Origin: an uncultured Verrucomicrobiota bacterium | GTDB lineage: Bacteria > Verrucomicrobiota > Verrucomicrobiia > Palsa-1439 | Direction of reading: 5' to 3' | Assembly (NCBI GenBank): GCA_903847335.1 | Contig: CAINDI010000104.1 | Location: forward strand, 1-36,132 | DNA length: 36,132 nucleotides | Shown here: piece by piece, positions 11,560-35,070 of the stretch | Numbering within the stretch: position 1 is the stretch's first letter | How the letters are laid out: every line of letters starts with the position of its first letter | The notes under the pieces: model-generated | Database searches by the model: none | The model's input: only the letters and a program-made list of their open reading frames with translations | Told to the model about the DNA's origin: nothing | Translations under genes and position numbers: made by a program

Positions 11560-14109
11560 CTATTCCATAAATTTCATGCGACCATAAAGTCGCAAAGTTT
11601 CACTATCGTACTGCGGTGCGAATGTGTAAGCCGTGCCACGCCGGATGAATGGATTTGAGGTCACATTCAGGCCCCAAGTTTGTCCAGCCTTCGGCGTCTT
11701 ACCGAACAATTGAAATGGCAACCAAACGGTCACCTCCCACCAATCCTTACCGGTCTTAAACTCCCGCCGCACATTTTTCAAATTAGCTCCATTTCCAATT
11801 GTCACCGCTGAACCGCGTGGATAGACTGTCACTCGGCTAGCCTGCTTGCCCTTCCCTTCGGCATCAATGTGAATTTGCGTTACGAAGCTATCGCTACCGC
11901 TACCGGCAAACTCATCCCAGTGTTTTAACCGTTCTTCAAGATTCACATGATCTTCGCGTATCGAAACCACCAGCGCGTTAGTTGTCCGCGAGACGCGGAA
12001 TGATAATCCGGCCGATTTCAACCAATCCACCGGTCGAAAGAATCCAAGGAAATCATCACTAAAATGTTCACCATCTCGGAAACAATGGTCATGCATCAAC
12101 GACTGCGTCGTTCCCGGCACGAATCCGCAAGTCAACCGCGGGGCTGTCATATGCCGCTGTTCATGCTCCAAAAAGTTAACCCACGCCTGCACACGTTCCG
12201 CCCAAACTTTTTTACCGGGCGCAGTCAACTTCGCTAAAGATTTATGCGCCGCCTTCAACGCAAGTGCTAACTGCCGTCGCGCCGGCGCCAGCGTTACCGG
12301 CGTGCGGAGGCGCCGGGGACGAATTTCACGTCGGATTTCATTATAAAGCCGGTGCGATTCGATGTAATCGCCAAATGCAGCGAACGGGATTCCGGGTTGC
12401 TGTAGAAAATCCGCCAGTTCACGAACCGGCGCAACTTCGCGTTGTTCGGGATTCAAACTAATCATTACCACGCGAATAAATAATTTACGTGCAACCTCGT
12501 TGCACTGCAAAAGCGGTGCCAGCTCCTGCAAATGCGCCAGTCCACCGGCGGCGAGCTTCCGGAGGCGTTGCGGCGTCCGGGAAAAATACATCGCAAAAAG
12601 ATTCCGCCCGGCCAGAATTTCATGCCGGAAATAATCTGCCGCCATGGCGTTGTAATCGAGGTATCGACGAAAGATTGCGGCGTGTTTGCGGCCAACTAAT
12701 TTTTCGTACTTCTTGGCAGCGCTATCGGCCAATCGCGCATACCGGTCAAGCGCTCCGGCAATCCGCCGGGGCGACCAGTTTGCCGCCGGACGTTCGGGAT
12801 TCTCTTCGTCAATAATGTATTGAAATTCGTTCTCCGGACAAACGTCCGCCGGTAGCCGCTTATTAATCCACGGCATATTCGCAAATGGCTGCCACGGTAA
12901 GCGGGAGGATTGTCCATTCAATCCATTCGCCGGCCAGAGGTAAAATGGCTCCTGAATATGCGAATACCAACCGGGATTGACCACTCCATCCGGTGCTGAA
13001 CCGTAGCAGAACTGACGGAACGCCAGCAACACGAGTTGGCTCGACGCTTCAATCGCCGTCAATAGTTCTTTCCCGGCAGCTAGCGGCACATCGTTACGTT
13101 TTGCTAGTGCGGCAGCGCGTGCCGGTTGTGGCCGTGATCGACCCGCAAAAAAATCCGCCGCCGCCAGCAAGTGTAGATAATTTAACCGCGCCAAGGCGCA
13201 TTCCACCTCGTCAAACACGCCCGGTACAGTCACAAGTATCGCGGCGAATTCAGTAATGGAATGAAAACTGATTCCGTCGACTCCCTTGCGCGTCGCATCG
13301 GCTAGCAATTCCTGCACGAAGTCATAATCAGCCCAAAGCTGCTGACACAGATTTGTGCCGCAGTTATGACACGGCCCAACCTCATAGATAAATGGCACGT
13401 GCGGCAACAACCGTTTCCAGTCGCGCACCCGACTATCCACCACCGGTAGATAGTAGGTATCGTTCGTGTCGGATCCTTTGTGGCAGAGAATGGATTGCCC
13501 CCGGTAGGATTTGACAACCCGGCAAAATTCCTCCGGTTGGTTGATTCCCCAAACGCGCCATACCGCCACCGGTTTGCGTTTCATGCGATTCCACTCACAC
13601 ACCACCGTATTCTCAATGTGGCGAAAGTCCTGCGAACTCTCGAAATTAAAATACAATCCATCCAAGTCAGGCAATTGCGCGAAAGTCTCGCGATAAACCC
13701 AGCGCATATAGCGGTCAATTTCCGGGTGTGCGAGATTGGCAGTCCGGTCGCCGGCGGTGGCTCCGAGCTTGAGATGTGCACTAAATGTTTTTGGAATATG
13801 CGAAACATAATGCTGCATAAAAGTTCGCAATCCGTAACGGTGGGCAATCGCTAACCCTCGTTTCAGAACTTCGCGCGTAGCTCGACAGTCGGCCGCTTTC
13901 CGAGAAGCTGCTTCCGGAAAATTAGTATAATCGAGAATAAATTCGAATGGATGATACGTACTAGGATAAAGCACCAGCCCATTAAAACCGTGATCCACCA
14001 CATGCTGGCACAATGTCTCCCACACCGCATCGGTATATTTGCCCACGTATCGCGGTGACGCGGGATCAAGCTTCATCTCGTGTTTATAATTCCGGACACT
14101 GAATTTCAT
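11560..14109 (-). CDS. Putative large glycoside hydrolase, TIM-barrel-like with CBM9-like C-terminus
   Basis: An 849-aa protein that I cannot assign to a named family. Residues 1-330 look like a beta/alpha barrel: GFNGLVLYPSTYHP at 41-54, YGLRTFMQHYVSHIPK at 92-107, and DLDGLYFNFESS at 148-159, where Asp150 and Glu157 are candidate catalytic acids at a strand end. A CHNCGTNLC cluster follows, then GVDGISFHSITEF. The middle 330-650 is mostly helical. About 190 C-terminal residues (SIREDHVN, FVTQIHIDAEGKG, EVTVWLPFQLFGK, GLNVTSNP) resemble the CBM9-like domain found on some carbohydrate enzymes. No signal peptide is seen, so it may act in the cytosol. The start is 14109, with AAAGGA close upstream, rather than 14157, which would overlap the larA-like gene. 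An alpha-glucuronidase-like role would fit the operon but is inference. Confidence 0.65.
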   Translation of the reverse strand: MKFSVRNYKHEMKLDPASPRYVGKYTDAVWETLCQHVVDHGFNGLVLYPSTYHPFEFILDYTNFPEAASRKAADCRATREVLKRGLAIAHRYGLRTFMQHYVSHIPKTFSAHLKLGATAGDRTANLAHPEIDRYMRWVYRETFAQLPDLDGLYFNFESSQDFRHIENTVVCEWNRMKRKPVAVWRVWGINQPEEFCRVVKSYRGQSILCHKGSDTNDTYYLPVVDSRVRDWKRLLPHVPFIYEVGPCHNCGTNLCQQLWADYDFVQELLADATRKGVDGISFHSITEFAAILVTVPGVFDEVECALARLNYLHLLAAADFFAGRSRPQPARAAALAKRNDVPLAAGKELLTAIEASSQLVLLAFRQFCYGSAPDGVVNPGWYSHIQEPFYLWPANGLNGQSSRLPWQPFANMPWINKRLPADVCPENEFQYIIDEENPERPAANWSPRRIAGALDRYARLADSAAKKYEKLVGRKHAAIFRRYLDYNAMAADYFRHEILAGRNLFAMYFSRTPQRLRKLAAGGLAHLQELAPLLQCNEVARKLFIRVVMISLNPEQREVAPVRELADFLQQPGIPFAAFGDYIESHRLYNEIRREIRPRRLRTPVTLAPARRQLALALKAAHKSLAKLTAPGKKVWAERVQAWVNFLEHEQRHMTAPRLTCGFVPGTTQSLMHDHCFRDGEHFSDDFLGFFRPVDWLKSAGLSFRVSRTTNALVVSIREDHVNLEERLKHWDEFAGSGSDSFVTQIHIDAEGKGKQASRVTVYPRGSAVTIGNGANLKNVRREFKTGKDWWEVTVWLPFQLFGKTPKAGQTWGLNVTSNPFIRRGTAYTFAPQYDSETLRLYGRMKFME

Positions 14110-14132
14110 TTTTTCCTTTGAGTCGCTGGATT

Positions 14133-15383
14133 TCAAAACTGACTTCGTAACGCCCACAAACCGAGTGCCGGATTGCTGATGTAGAAAACGTCACCGTTGA
14201 AGCCGTCTTTGAGACCAGCAACGGGATAATCCTTGAGATTACCGACTTCAAAACCCACGGAGCGAATCGCGTCCGCGGTCAGACCGGATCCGGGACAATA
14301 CTTAATCCGGAACCGCCCCTCGCTCGAACCATGAATGAGATGCGCCGCCGCGCTGAGATTATTCGCTAGCTCCGGATTCGCCCTCACCGCCGCCAACGTC
14401 GGCGGCGTGCCCCGGTAACCATACTTGCGAATGAGCCGGTCAATCTCATGGTCTTCGCCAAACTCTGTGAGTCCCGGTGCAAGAATAATTAACTCACCAC
14501 CGTCGGCCATCGCCATGCGGGTCCGGTAAATCGCTTTGTTGCCAAGCCAAGTACTCTTGAACTCGTGCGGGTCGAGATACACCAACACTTTCTTCAATGG
14601 CGCGTCGAGTAAATCAAGATTCACCTGCTGCGAAAGTTTCGCACCGGTCGTGAAAGTCGCATCGTCATCGCCAATATACAACCCGCGCATCGCCATACCG
14701 GTGTTCGTCTTTTGCATCACAGTCAGCACATAAACAATCGGCAGGTCACGCAAGAAAGTTTGAATCCCGTAGTTAAACAACTTTCGCACCGGTGTCTCTA
14801 TCCGCCCCATCATCCGCTCCATGCCGAATGCCGCACCGAGAAAATGCGATTTGTTAATTGAATCCGGTCCACCGGCACCGGTCATGATATTCTTGGTGTA
14901 ATTCGCAATTCCAACAACTTCATGTGGCACAAGCTGGCCAACGGAAAGAATCAAATCATAGCCGGCAAAAAGCTGATTACTCACCTCGACGCGCACATCG
15001 TAATCTACACGGCCTTCTGACCATTCCTTAATCAACTTACCGGGAACCGTGCCGACATGCCGGATGTTGTTCCGCCAATCGTGAACAAGAAACCGGTCGA
15101 GCGGAATCGTATCGCCAAACATCATCCGCAACTGCGCCGGCGTCATCGGCGAATGCGTGCCAAGAGTCGGCAAAACGTCAACTTGCGTCGTCGGCGCCAG
15201 CATCTCGTATAAAATCGCCGTCAACGGACCGGCATCGGAATTCAACCGCGTATGGTCCGGCGGCAAAATTAAAACTTTCCGCAACGGACGATCGATTGCT
15301 TTCAGTAATTGCGCTAACGCCGCGCGCTTATCACCGGTGGAGATGGTATCGTTAACGCTGCCGCGTTGAAAATATGTTGCCAC
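14133..15383 (-). CDS. LarA-family nickel-pincer hydroxyacid racemase/epimerase
   Basis: A 416-aa member of the LarA (DUF2088) family, which uses a nickel-pincer nucleotide to racemise or epimerise 2-hydroxyacids. Key positions are present: Asp43 and Arg46 in PDHTR, His101, His154 in LVPHE, Lys164 in YTKN and His180 in NKSHF. The 10- and 16-residue spacings from His154 to Lys164 to His180 equal those between His174, Lys184 and His200 of Lactiplantibacillus plantarum LarA, where Lys184 carries the cofactor. Known homologues act on lactate, malate, phenyllactate or D-gluconate. With 6-phosphogluconate dehydrogenase and a sugar-acid kinase in the operon, an aldonate is the likely substrate (inference). 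The start is GTG at 15383 with no clear Shine-Dalgarno, 11 nt after the kinase stop. The cofactor genes larB, larC and larE are not in the window. Confidence 0.88.
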   Translation of the reverse strand: MATYFQRGSVNDTISTGDKRAALAQLLKAIDRPLRKVLILPPDHTRLNSDAGPLTAILYEMLAPTTQVDVLPTLGTHSPMTPAQLRMMFGDTIPLDRFLVHDWRNNIRHVGTVPGKLIKEWSEGRVDYDVRVEVSNQLFAGYDLILSVGQLVPHEVVGIANYTKNIMTGAGGPDSINKSHFLGAAFGMERMMGRIETPVRKLFNYGIQTFLRDLPIVYVLTVMQKTNTGMAMRGLYIGDDDATFTTGAKLSQQVNLDLLDAPLKKVLVYLDPHEFKSTWLGNKAIYRTRMAMADGGELIILAPGLTEFGEDHEIDRLIRKYGYRGTPPTLAAVRANPELANNLSAAAHLIHGSSEGRFRIKYCPGSGLTADAIRSVGFEVGNLKDYPVAGLKDGFNGDVFYISNPALGLWALRSQF

Positions 15384-31424: not shown

Positions 31425-31507
31425 GTACGGAGTATAACAACTGCCTCTCAAAAATCTACAGGAAATCTTTTTGCAAGCTCACCGGCTATGGTAACATGCC
31501 AGCCAGC

Positions 31508-32314
31508 ATGTATCGTTTGGCATTCCAATCTCATACCGTCGCACGACCACCGGTGACCGGCGACACCGCCGGCCTGCTCATTGGCCGGGACGCCGCGTGC
31601 GGTTTACGACTCACCGATGCCGGCGTCCAAGACCGGCACGCCACGATTGATTGCCGCGCCGATGGCTACTTCATTCGCGACCTCACCACCAGTGCCGGTG
31701 TCCACGTCAACGGCACAGCTGTCACCGACCAACGTCTCACCACCGGCGACGAAATTGAAATCGGCTCCGTCCGTTTCACTTTTGAAGTCGTTCATCAACC
31801 ACCACCGGACCGCCGCACTTTTGACCCGTGGCAATTTCTCGGTGCCGGCATCATCGCCGCACTGGTCGTGGGCCAACTCGCATTATTCGTCTGGATTTTC
31901 ACCCAACCACATCCGCGCCACGCCCGCACCGATTTCACCGCCAACCAGCCAACACCATCACCCACTCCGGTAGCTCCGACCAATACTCCGGCCTTACTTC
32001 CTCTAACCACCGGCACCACTAGCACACCGGAAGTTTTAAGCCGGATGATAAAAATCATTCGCGCCGACCGTCCCGACACCGGCACCTTGCGCCTCCTCAT
32101 CAAAGCGCAAGTCGGCGACCGGCAACTCGACCCCAAAGCGATTGCCATCAGCGTGCAATGTTCTCCCGCCGCAATCCAATGGCTCACCATCCCGGCGACT
32201 TGGGAAAATTTCAAAACTAAAGAATTATCCATCCGCCTACCGGAACCTTGTCCTGGTTGCATCGTCCGCACCTATTACCGGAATCAACCGCAAGACAGCG
32301 CGACCATTCCATGA
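31508..32314 (+). CDS. FHA-domain membrane protein
   Basis: A 268-aa protein. Residues 1-92 are an FHA domain (LLIGRD, LRLTDAGVQDRHATI, YFIRDLTTSAGVHVNG, GDEIEIGSVRFTF), which binds phosphothreonine peptides. A single transmembrane segment lies at about 103-125. A Pro/Thr-rich linker (PTPSPTPVAPTNTP) leads to a small beta domain of about 90 residues. A start at 31496 is possible; 31508 places the methionine directly before the first strand of the domain. Its stop overlaps the start of the QGAG-repeat gene (ATGA), so the two are coupled. Confidence 0.84.
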   Translation: MYRLAFQSHTVARPPVTGDTAGLLIGRDAACGLRLTDAGVQDRHATIDCRADGYFIRDLTTSAGVHVNGTAVTDQRLTTGDEIEIGSVRFTFEVVHQPPPDRRTFDPWQFLGAGIIAALVVGQLALFVWIFTQPHPRHARTDFTANQPTPSPTPVAPTNTPALLPLTTGTTSTPEVLSRMIKIIRADRPDTGTLRLLIKAQVGDRQLDPKAIAISVQCSPAAIQWLTIPATWENFKTKELSIRLPEPCPGCIVRTYYRNQPQDSATIP

Positions 32315-35070
32315 ACTTCGCCCGCCGTCTCCTGTTGCTAGTCGCACTGCTGGCACCGGCTTGGCTCCACGCCGCACCACCGGTGGCGTTTGACACCGCA
32401 GACGAACGCGCCCTGCAACTCGCCCTCCGCACTCTCAAAATGACCGAACGCGATTTGGCATTCCAGAAAACCAATGTCGAATCCGAACTGGTCATTGCCA
32501 AGTCCTGTCAATTTTTACAAGATCCGCTCCATCTCCCTAGCTACGCCGAATCTGTTATGAGCAACTGCGCCGCCACCACCCGCCTAGGTGCGCTTACCGA
32601 TTTTGCTTTTCGTCAACTCGAAATTCAGCTTCCCCCCGAAAGCTTCGTGTATCCACTCATTACCGTTGATGCTGCATTTCTCGCTAAGTTGCCGGCACCC
32701 GTTGCCCAAGCGATTCAGAAGATTACCGATGCGGTCGCATTAAGCTCCGCGCTACTGAAATCTGCGCTACCGGCTGACAGAGCCGCTGCGCTGGCCGGTT
32801 TCGCCACAGAGTCACTCCACATCCAGCAGGACAAAGCTGAAATCGAAAGTTGGCAGCAACTCGGTCTCGACACAGCACCGCTGAAACGATTTCTCGAACG
32901 CGATGCGCACTTGGAACTCCAAGACACCGAGTTGGCCGACGCCATTCTCAACGCGTCCGAAAAATTTAACTTACCGTTATTAATGGAGGCAGCCATGCAA
33001 CTTGCCGGTGCTGTCGACAATGCGGTGGCATTGTTGCGCACAAACAAATTTACCAGCGACTTCCGGTATGAGACCGACACGAACCTCGGTAAGATTATCG
33101 TTACTGGCACCGGTAAACACGTTTTCACTAACGAAGCATTTCTGATCATCGGACTCGGTGGTGAAAACATTTACTCAAACTCCGCTGGTGGAGCCAACGG
33201 TCTCGCCGGACGGCCAATTTCCATCGTCATCGATCTCGGTCACAATAGTCAGTTCGTTTCCAAACGCAGTTTCTCGCAAGGCTCCGGTGTATTTGGCATC
33301 GGCATTCTCGCCGCGCTCGGCAGCAACTGCACGTTTCAAGCCAAACATCTTTCGCAAGGTGCCGGCTTTTTCGGTTGCGGGATTTTGATGACCGGTGCTG
33401 GCAAACAAACTTTCGAAGCCGACACTTTTTGCCAAGGTGCCGGCATGTTCGGCACCGGCATCCTCTGGCAACGTGGCGAAAATTCAACGTGCCGGGCCGC
33501 TGAACTGGCGCAAGGTTTTGGCGGCGTGCAAGGTGTCGGTTTGTTACTCGACGAACGCGGCCACAATTCGTACTTCGCCGGTGGAAAATATCCGTGCGAT
33601 TGGTTGCCGGGACATTTCTTTTCACTCTCGCAAGGCTTCGGCTACGGCATGCGACCATTGGCCGGTGGCGGCATCGGCATCCTGTGCGGTTTAGCCGGCC
33701 ACAATCAGTATCAAGCCGATGTCTATGGCCAAGGCGCGAGCTATTGGTATTCCGTCGGCCTTTTGCTCGACTCCGGCAATAACCGGTACGACGCTCATCA
33801 ATACTGCCAAGGTGCCGGCATCCATCTCAGCACCGGCGCGCTCATTAATTTTGCCGGTAACAACATCTACACCGCCGGTCACATTTGCCAGGGTGCGGCG
33901 CACGATTACGCCGTCGGAATGTTAATCAATCGCACCGGTAACAATCAATTCACCGGCGACACTACCGCCCAAGGCGCGGCCATCAACAATTCTTTCGCGT
34001 TGCTTCTCAATCATGCTGGTACCAACACCTACACCGGCACCGACCCGAAACAATCGCAAGCCACCGGTCACGATGGCGGCAAACGCGAATACGGCTCCAT
34101 CGCCTTACTCCTCGACCTCGGTGGCCACGGCAATTATTCGCAAGGCCAAACCAACAACGCCATCTGGTTAAAACCATTCTACGGGGCCGGCCTCGACTGC
34201 GAAATTTCATCCATCGGAACACCTTTCCAGCCGCGACAAGAATCACCGGTAGCACCGCGAGTCTCCGGTCGCCTCAATAAAGTCACATCAGTCAATCCCC
34301 ATCACCCCATCGAAAATCTTTTCCGCCGCGCCACCAGCGACCGGCCCGATGCCGCTCAAGCGTGGGACGAACTCAAAAATCGCGCCACCGAAGCGCTCCC
34401 CTATTTAATCACTCGGCTCGCCAGCCCTAACGTCATGGTGCGCGTCAAAGTCGAAGAACTCGTCGATTACCTCGGCACGAATTCGATTCCACCGCTCATC
34501 GCCGGTATCCGCACCGCCACCGATGACGACACCGCTCGGCTCTGCTGTTATTACCTCGCCCGCTTCGACGAAAAAGCCCGCGCCAGCATCCCCGCTATTT
34601 TGCCGCTACTCCACCGCGACAAAACCCGCACCACCGCCTTCTACACACTCGGCCATCTCCGCGCCACCAAAGCCTTCCGCCCAGCTATGGCAGCTTTGAA
34701 TGGCACACCAGAATTGGTTCGCCTCCGCGCCGCGCAAGCGCTGGGGAAAATCGGCGACCGGCGCGCCATTCCCGCTTTACTCCGCAAACTCGACGATGAA
34801 ATGTATGATGTCCGCTATGCCGCCGAAGATGCGCTCGTCAATTTTGGAAATCCAAGTCTCACTTCGTTGCGCGAAGCCTACCGGCGCGCCACGCCACGTG
34901 CCCGACCGCACATTTTGGAAGCACTCGCCAAACTCGGCGACGAAACCGCGTTGACTTGGGCACGTGAGTATTACCGGAACGATGACCCACTCGTCCGCAC
35001 CGCCGTCCTAAAATCGCTCGCTGCCGCACTCCCACCGGCTACGCCGATTTCGGTAGCCGCGACAAAATAA
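32311..35070 (+). CDS. Exported QGAG-repeat and HEAT-repeat protein
   Basis: A 919-aa protein with a signal peptide (MNFARRLLLLVALLAPAWLHA). Residues 25-300 are mostly helical. From about 318 to 615 a repeat of about 26-29 residues recurs, with a [SCA]QG-[AS]-[GA] core at 322, 348, 374, 400, 440, 473, 499, 526, 553, 582 (variant QATG) and 610; each unit continues with a GIGILL-like strand and a GxNxY turn. This suggests a beta-solenoid. Residues 700-905 are HEAT/PBS-lyase-type repeats (RLRAAQALGKIGDRRAIPALLRKLDD, VRYAAEDALVNFG). The combination is unfamiliar to me. The likely location is periplasm or cell surface. It is coupled to the FHA gene upstream. Start at 32311 is preferred over a longer frame beginning at 32248 because of the signal peptide and the ATGA overlap. 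Confidence 0.8.
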   Translation: MNFARRLLLLVALLAPAWLHAAPPVAFDTADERALQLALRTLKMTERDLAFQKTNVESELVIAKSCQFLQDPLHLPSYAESVMSNCAATTRLGALTDFAFRQLEIQLPPESFVYPLITVDAAFLAKLPAPVAQAIQKITDAVALSSALLKSALPADRAAALAGFATESLHIQQDKAEIESWQQLGLDTAPLKRFLERDAHLELQDTELADAILNASEKFNLPLLMEAAMQLAGAVDNAVALLRTNKFTSDFRYETDTNLGKIIVTGTGKHVFTNEAFLIIGLGGENIYSNSAGGANGLAGRPISIVIDLGHNSQFVSKRSFSQGSGVFGIGILAALGSNCTFQAKHLSQGAGFFGCGILMTGAGKQTFEADTFCQGAGMFGTGILWQRGENSTCRAAELAQGFGGVQGVGLLLDERGHNSYFAGGKYPCDWLPGHFFSLSQGFGYGMRPLAGGGIGILCGLAGHNQYQADVYGQGASYWYSVGLLLDSGNNRYDAHQYCQGAGIHLSTGALINFAGNNIYTAGHICQGAAHDYAVGMLINRTGNNQFTGDTTAQGAAINNSFALLLNHAGTNTYTGTDPKQSQATGHDGGKREYGSIALLLDLGGHGNYSQGQTNNAIWLKPFYGAGLDCEISSIGTPFQPRQESPVAPRVSGRLNKVTSVNPHHPIENLFRRATSDRPDAAQAWDELKNRATEALPYLITRLASPNVMVRVKVEELVDYLGTNSIPPLIAGIRTATDDDTARLCCYYLARFDEKARASIPAILPLLHRDKTRTTAFYTLGHLRATKAFRPAMAALNGTPELVRLRAAQALGKIGDRRAIPALLRKLDDEMYDVRYAAEDALVNFGNPSLTSLREAYRRATPRARPHILEALAKLGDETALTWAREYYRNDDPLVRTAVLKSLAAALPPATPISVAATK

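Follow-up and report, generated by a model that had tools for sequence, protein, structure and literature searches.

Introduction

In the beta-rolls of RTX proteins, aspartates in the turns bridge rows of Ca2+, and region IV of MpIBP, the ice-binding adhesin of Marinomonas, has an xGTGND turn and binds Ca2+ along a single edge (PMC6891781). Pectate lyase C is a beta-helix without repeating sequence motifs (PMC6891781). Here we analyse a gene from an uncultured Verrucomicrobiota bacterium (lineage Palsa-1439; assembly GCA_903847335.1, contig CAINDI010000104.1), the whole stretch of 36,132 nucleotides that was studied being referred to as the window. The gene encodes a protein in which a beta-solenoid of twelve coils lies between a helical N-terminal part and a HEAT-repeat tail. 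An earlier note on this DNA had placed it at 32311-35070 on the + strand with a product of 919 residues, and these values were correct. Ladders of asparagine, whose amides are hydrogen-bonded, are known in parallel beta-helices.

The RTX beta-roll and region IV of MpIBP (PDB 3p4g) resemble the solenoid in being exported beta-solenoids with a G-N-D turn in each coil and aligned aspartates (Asp) along one edge. However, their coil takes 18 residues (19 in MpIBP region IV) rather than 26-27, and they are built of GGxGxDxUx nonapeptides that match HemolysinCabind, whereas the turn here reads DxxGNDxY and HemolysinCabind matched none of 69 members at E up to 10. The solenoid family furthermore has two Asp columns, a nearly constant twelve coils and a Sec-type signal peptide (by inspection). 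With the beta-helices of pectate lyases and PL6 alginate lyases it shares repetitive parallel coils of similar length, but it has no sequence match or significant structural match to them and carries one regular motif per coil. The C-terminal domain of the window protein matches the families of bacterial HEAT-repeat proteins (HEAT_2, HEAT_PBS) at curated cut-offs; in this case, however, HEAT regularly accompanies the solenoid, either fused to it or encoded by the next gene. Relatives with N-terminal PDZ or C-terminal PpiC rotamase domains recall the PDZ/PpiC envelope proteins, but no protease domain was found among those scanned and the conserved core is the solenoid.

Results

Structure of the solenoid protein

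The gene and its parts, all on the + strand, are as follows.
32311..35070, +: whole gene, 919 residues, with signal peptide, helical part, 12-coil beta-solenoid and HEAT tail (AlphaFold2, AF2, model)
33064..34206, +: beta-solenoid, with lead-in strands from residue 252 and then 12 coils at residues 279-632 (repeat statistics, coil table and model)
32311..32373, +: signal peptide, residues 1-21, MNFARRLLLLVALLAPAWLHA (predicted by inspection)
32395..33060, +: conserved helical N-terminal domain, residues about 29-250 (model helices and N-terminal profile)
34303..35028, +: HEAT-repeat domain, residues 665-906 (Pfam HEAT_2 and HEAT; model helices)

Repeat detection and structure prediction, both of which the earlier note had proposed, support a regular solenoid. 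Residue autocorrelation peaked at lags 27 and 26 (-0.02 and -0.20), above all 500 shuffles, the best of which reached -0.40. When the solenoid was modelled alone with 69 sequences as input, a confident 12-coil model was obtained (predicted local distance difference test, pLDDT, 94.1; predicted TM-score, pTM, 0.92), in which the strands, assigned as in all predicted models by DSSP, were regularly spaced. The repeat itself is therefore real, but about eleven copies over residues 318-615 had been counted, and this is corrected to twelve coils over the longer range given above. Coils are approximately 26-27 residues long, with coil 6 (46, owing to an insert), coil 11 (35) and coil 12 (30) being longer. 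Where a [SCA]QGAG core had been suggested, QG follows S, C, A or G at nine places (residues 322, 348, 374, 400, 440, 473, 499, 526 and 553). The GxNxY turn that had been taken as a signature is present, but it is a derived form produced by lineage-specific loss of Asp, as the family consensus is G-[N/D]-D-x-Y and a typical member coil reads L-x-D-x-x-G-N-D-x-Y.

The AF2 model of the full-length protein, made with 20 related sequences as input (mean pLDDT 85.9, pTM 0.88), has helices at 29-243, strands at 252-629 and helices at 666-906, which agrees with the helical N-terminal part and HEAT tail described previously. The tail scored above the Pfam gathering cut-offs (given in brackets after the bits) for HEAT_2 (2.7e-19, 69.7 bits; 27.7), HEAT (6.8e-8, 32.5 bits; 23.5) and HEAT_PBS (26.5 bits; 20.9). 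The N-terminal domain had no Pfam match at the curated cut-off, and a profile built for it matched many members from other phyla. Export, likewise claimed before, is consistent with the predicted signal peptide, a region that the model shows as a helix leading into a stretch of low confidence, and signal-peptide-like or lipobox-like N-termini were seen by inspection in many family members.

Distribution and novelty of the family

The window protein matched a profile of the 12-coil solenoid, in which its own sequence is included, at E 3.6e-145 over model positions 3-389 of 392, and a search with the single sequence found relatives in other taxonomic families down to 4.7e-34. Counting the query genome, matches were present in 19 of 57 near genomes and, in the profile search of other Verrucomicrobiota that had been suggested, in 14 of 195 sampled genomes of the phylum. 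They were also present in 82 of 197 Planctomycetota genomes, some of which hold several, up to seven; three of these genomes (G277, G303 and G350) have six or seven solenoid matches, and several planctomycete members, e.g., L181 and L184, carry long N-terminal extensions lacking a Pfam match.

A scan of genome contigs confirmed 335 relatives, 80 of which were kept and assigned to lineages by their record titles. These titles name Verrucomicrobia, Kiritimatiellia, Planctomycetota, WOR-3/Stahlbacteria, Zixibacteria, Eisenbacteria, Cloacimonadota, Latescibacterota, Ignavibacteria, Kapaibacterium, Gemmatimonadetes, Nitrospinota, Nitrospirae and Armatimonadetes; an individual placement could be mistaken because most relatives are metagenome bins, but the overall breadth is unlikely to be. 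The plasmids, phages and viral contigs searched gave no match to the solenoid family, and a mobile-element origin was rejected on this basis. The family is chromosomal and present in many phyla.

Across the 69 members scanned, the solenoid had no match at curated cut-offs in Pfam or NCBIfam, including their parallel beta-helix profiles, and two members touched Peptidase_M10_C (best E 0.0087). PHROGs gave no match, and nothing in the PDB was significant by sequence profile. HEAT designs dominated the matches of the full-length model in a structural search, hence the separate solenoid model, for which Foldseek gave no match at E <= 0.001, the best E being 1.5 in the PDB and 0.08 in BFVD. The best RTX-like match was 3p4g (E 1.8), and the TM-score by target length reached up to 0.46 with another chain. 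Known beta-helix and RTX families were rejected on the results of these searches, none of which gave a clear match of the repeats to a described beta-helix family, and a literature search of partial coverage found nothing on this domain combination. The remark that no named family with such a layout is known thus holds in that none was found to cover the solenoid, but the layout is not peculiar to the window protein, being that of a cross-phylum family. As far as found in Pfam, NCBIfam, PHROGs, the PDB, BFVD and the literature searched, the family is undescribed, and without an entry in these family and structure libraries its core will probably escape routine annotation.

The aspartate ladder and its loss

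The ladder is made up of two columns.
33145..34131, +: span of the two Asp-ladder columns, with 4 of 24 positions Asp in the window protein
Column 1: residues 281, 308, 335, 361, 387, 414, 460, 487, 513, 540, 567 and 602
Column 2: residues 286, 313, 340, 366, 392, 419, 465, 491, 518, 545, 572 and 607

In an alignment of 86 members, 26 positions were Asp in at least 75 percent of sequences, and 24 of these form the two columns over the twelve coils, so that relatives carry one Asp pair per coil, set in the turn, along the whole solenoid. Outside the window's taxonomic family (n = 77) the median was 23 of the 24 ladder positions and the minimum 20. The window protein has four, all in column one (4/12), and column two (0/12) is largely asparagine (Asn). 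The loss is derived, since a relative in the same genus (G001) keeps 18 of 24. As membership rests on full-length homology, the ladder is considered a typical rather than a defining trait of the family.

The loss is concentrated on the ladder. Three close relatives (L032, L029 and L030) share Asp at twenty of the 26 positions, and the window protein has lost 14 of these, 10 of them to Asn. By comparison, it has lost 5 of 23 non-ladder Asp (Fisher p 0.002) and changed 13 of 178 other shared solenoid residues, keeping 165 (p 5e-10 against the ladder), these p-values being descriptive because the ladder sites were chosen with the data already in view; eight of nine shared HEAT Asp are kept. Against 73 other ortholog pairs from the two genomes compared, both only partly sampled, Asp-to-Asn change was seen at 75 of 1102 sites, compared with 10 of 20 in the ladder (p 3.7e-7, descriptive in the same sense), and genome-wide loss of Asp was rejected as the sole cause, being insufficient.

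A similar change was found in another genus, where one genome (G009) has 12 of 24 ladder Asp; Asn occurs in its second column but not in its first, and each of its two genus-mates has kept 18 Asp. In the tree the window genome (G000) groups with G001 (99) and G009 with its genus-mates (97-100), so the losses in the two genomes appear to be independent.

One could read the Asp loss as decay, with the window protein losing its function and its ladder under relaxed selection. A ladder that is among the most conserved features of the family is mostly gone here, the Asp of coils 3-5 are lost in most of the taxonomic family, and there is a mild genome-wide excess of Asp-to-Asn change (75 against 36 in the reverse comparison over the 73 pairs). 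However, the reading frame is intact, the rest of the solenoid and the HEAT Asp are kept to the extent given above, as are all residues of the conserved stripe described below, most losses went to one residue, Asn, and G009 arrived, apparently independently, at the same column-two pattern. We consider decay improbable.

The conserved stripe

A second conserved feature runs along about five successive coils, separate from the ladder.
33652..33990, +: stripe of R448-P449, Y478-W479, Y498, H505, H531-D532 and N560, at a similar place on successive coils (86-member alignment)

R448, Y498, H505 and D532 are present in 86/86 members, Y478, W479 and H531 in 85/86, P449 in 77/86 and N560 in 73/86, and all are kept in the window protein. 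Most of these residues lie a few residues after QG on consecutive coils and, judging from the repeat register, should line up on one face. Sequence comparison thus shows a ladder that has been rewritten while the putative functional stripe is unchanged.

The stripe is rich in residues of catalytic type, which makes an enzyme the main rival to the scaffold role that we put forward in the Discussion. The protein would then act on an envelope or extracellular polymer, be it glycan or peptide, through a groove lined by R448, Y478, W479, Y498, H505, H531 and D532, with HEAT, PDZ or PpiC as accessory domains. The run of invariant Arg, His, Asp, Tyr and Trp from coil to coil resembles an active-site cleft, lyases and hydrolases of polysaccharides are common among right-handed beta-helix proteins, and the very weak, non-significant Foldseek matches include PL6 lyases and pectin methylesterases. 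No structural match reached significance, however, nor was there a carbohydrate-active enzyme or lyase match in Pfam, NCBIfam or the PDB, and no polysaccharide-utilisation neighbours recurred among the gene clusters and Pfam-scanned genes. An enzyme is therefore a serious but unlikely candidate.

The same stripe might instead be a packing or self-assembly interface on a rigid rod, i.e., the protein could be a structural, surface-layer or adhesion protein. Solenoids often act as stalks or adhesins, this one is exported, and its closest sequence analogue is the turn of a Ca2+-dependent RTX adhesin. Adhesin repeats vary in copy number, whereas nearly all family members have one full-length solenoid, whose coil count hardly varies between phyla and whose invariant residues sit on particular coils, a pattern unlike simple expandable repeats. 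Such a role is accordingly given little weight.

Partner domains and neighbouring genes

Architecture was labelled in 141 target open reading frames, a set chosen by similarity rather than at random and containing some duplicate records, with PDZ and PpiC calls made by Pfam and extended with small local profiles. Solenoid-HEAT was assigned to 44, HEAT-solenoid-HEAT to seven, HEAT-solenoid to one and a solenoid with an adjacent HEAT gene to 20; a further 22 were PDZ-solenoid, 17 solenoid-PpiC and one solenoid-PpiC with an adjacent HEAT gene, leaving 29 unlabelled. Inspection of 14 unlabelled members that end with the solenoid found a HEAT gene on the same strand at or near the stop codon in 13, two of these approximately 600 bases away. 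The separate HEAT gene frequently overlaps the solenoid gene by 4 bases. That HEAT is fused in some lineages and adjacent in others is a classical sign of a functional pair. From sequences and models, the invariant core is a predicted helical domain and one 12-coil solenoid, paired with a HEAT module that is part of the same protein or of a separate one.

In one unclassified lineage the solenoid-HEAT gene stands between an ExbB/TolQ gene and an ExbD/TolR gene (L115 3534-7498, and L120), the latter overlapping its stop codon. In five Eisenbacteria-like relatives (L062, L068, L074, L080 and L109) the solenoid gene has a 4-base overlap with an upstream gene for a xanthine-dehydrogenase-type molybdopterin subunit, and in three relatives from the window's family (L030 and the like) the upstream gene encodes a different molybdopterin oxidoreductase, Oxidored_molyb. 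These are two unrelated lineages with two different enzyme families, and a molybdopterin-enzyme association, being bound to particular lineages, was rejected and judged to be chance. In two Kapaibacterium genomes (L088 7057-8670 and L111 6897-8411) the next gene, 5-7 bases downstream, is apparently NFACT/RqcH-like (Pfam run on L088 only).

The gene upstream of the window protein is listed here.
31496..32314, +: FHA-domain protein with one likely transmembrane segment (by inspection), PF00498 at 1.5e-14

Its stop codon overlaps the start of the solenoid gene (ATGA, 32311-32314), which confirms the overlap behind the translational coupling proposed previously and would fit a dedicated phosphopeptide-sensing pair of solenoid protein and upstream FHA membrane protein. 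However, no FHA homologue was found beside the solenoid gene in any relative examined, the same genus included, and the upstream genes of relatives are unrelated, e.g., the molybdopterin oxidoreductase above. The linkage is local to the window genome among the loci examined, which contradicts the pair as a conserved function; it was rejected as a conserved system and is very improbable as a dedicated pair. Elsewhere in the window, at 11560-14157 (-), an open reading frame of 865 residues had no Pfam match better than E 0.2.

Discussion

Signal peptides, lipobox-like N-termini, PDZ and PpiC domains and the Tol/Exb association assign the family to the envelope and speak for a protein-handling role. 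We tentatively propose, at somewhat less than even confidence, that the protein serves as a scaffold in the envelope, with a ladder that in its usual form binds cations, probably Ca2+, and that has been rebuilt here as an amide ladder. The Asp ladder would bind a row of divalent cations, most likely Ca2+, and so rigidify the solenoid after export, a proposal made by analogy with the xGTGND turn in the RTX-type beta-roll of the Marinomonas adhesin. The stripe would serve as a ligand- or substrate-binding surface, and HEAT, or PDZ and PpiC in other lineages, would dock or handle a protein partner, such that the whole may act as a periplasmic or surface scaffold or a chaperone-like factor. In the window protein the Asn ladder would hold the coils together by hydrogen bonds, free of metal, and with the stripe kept it may still do its job with little or no metal dependence.

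Several points weigh against this proposal. The Ca2+ ladder is argued from analogy and the surface position of the stripe from repeat register rather than coordinates, and the known Ca2+ beta-rolls show no significant structural match to the modelled solenoid, 3p4g being the nearest of RTX type. The partner domains PDZ, PpiC and HEAT are of a generic kind, an enzyme would account just as well for the invariant His, Asp, Arg and Tyr, and part of the ladder change could be mutational given the mild genome-wide Asp-to-Asn excess. The widest form of the proposal, in which a Ca2+-stabilised, cross-phylum envelope solenoid belongs to an undescribed protein-handling system linked to HEAT, PDZ and PpiC, and its Asp ladders were independently converted to metal-free Asn ladders with the functional site unchanged, is possible but unlikely.

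The swap of Asp for Asn is a natural experiment, as one genus holds both an Asp-rich and an Asp-poor form of the protein, and this pair could show whether a repeat protein may shift from ion- to amide-stabilised while its active surface is kept. Furthermore, the HEAT, PDZ and PpiC partners offer concrete starting points for working out function in these phyla, whose envelopes are poorly studied.

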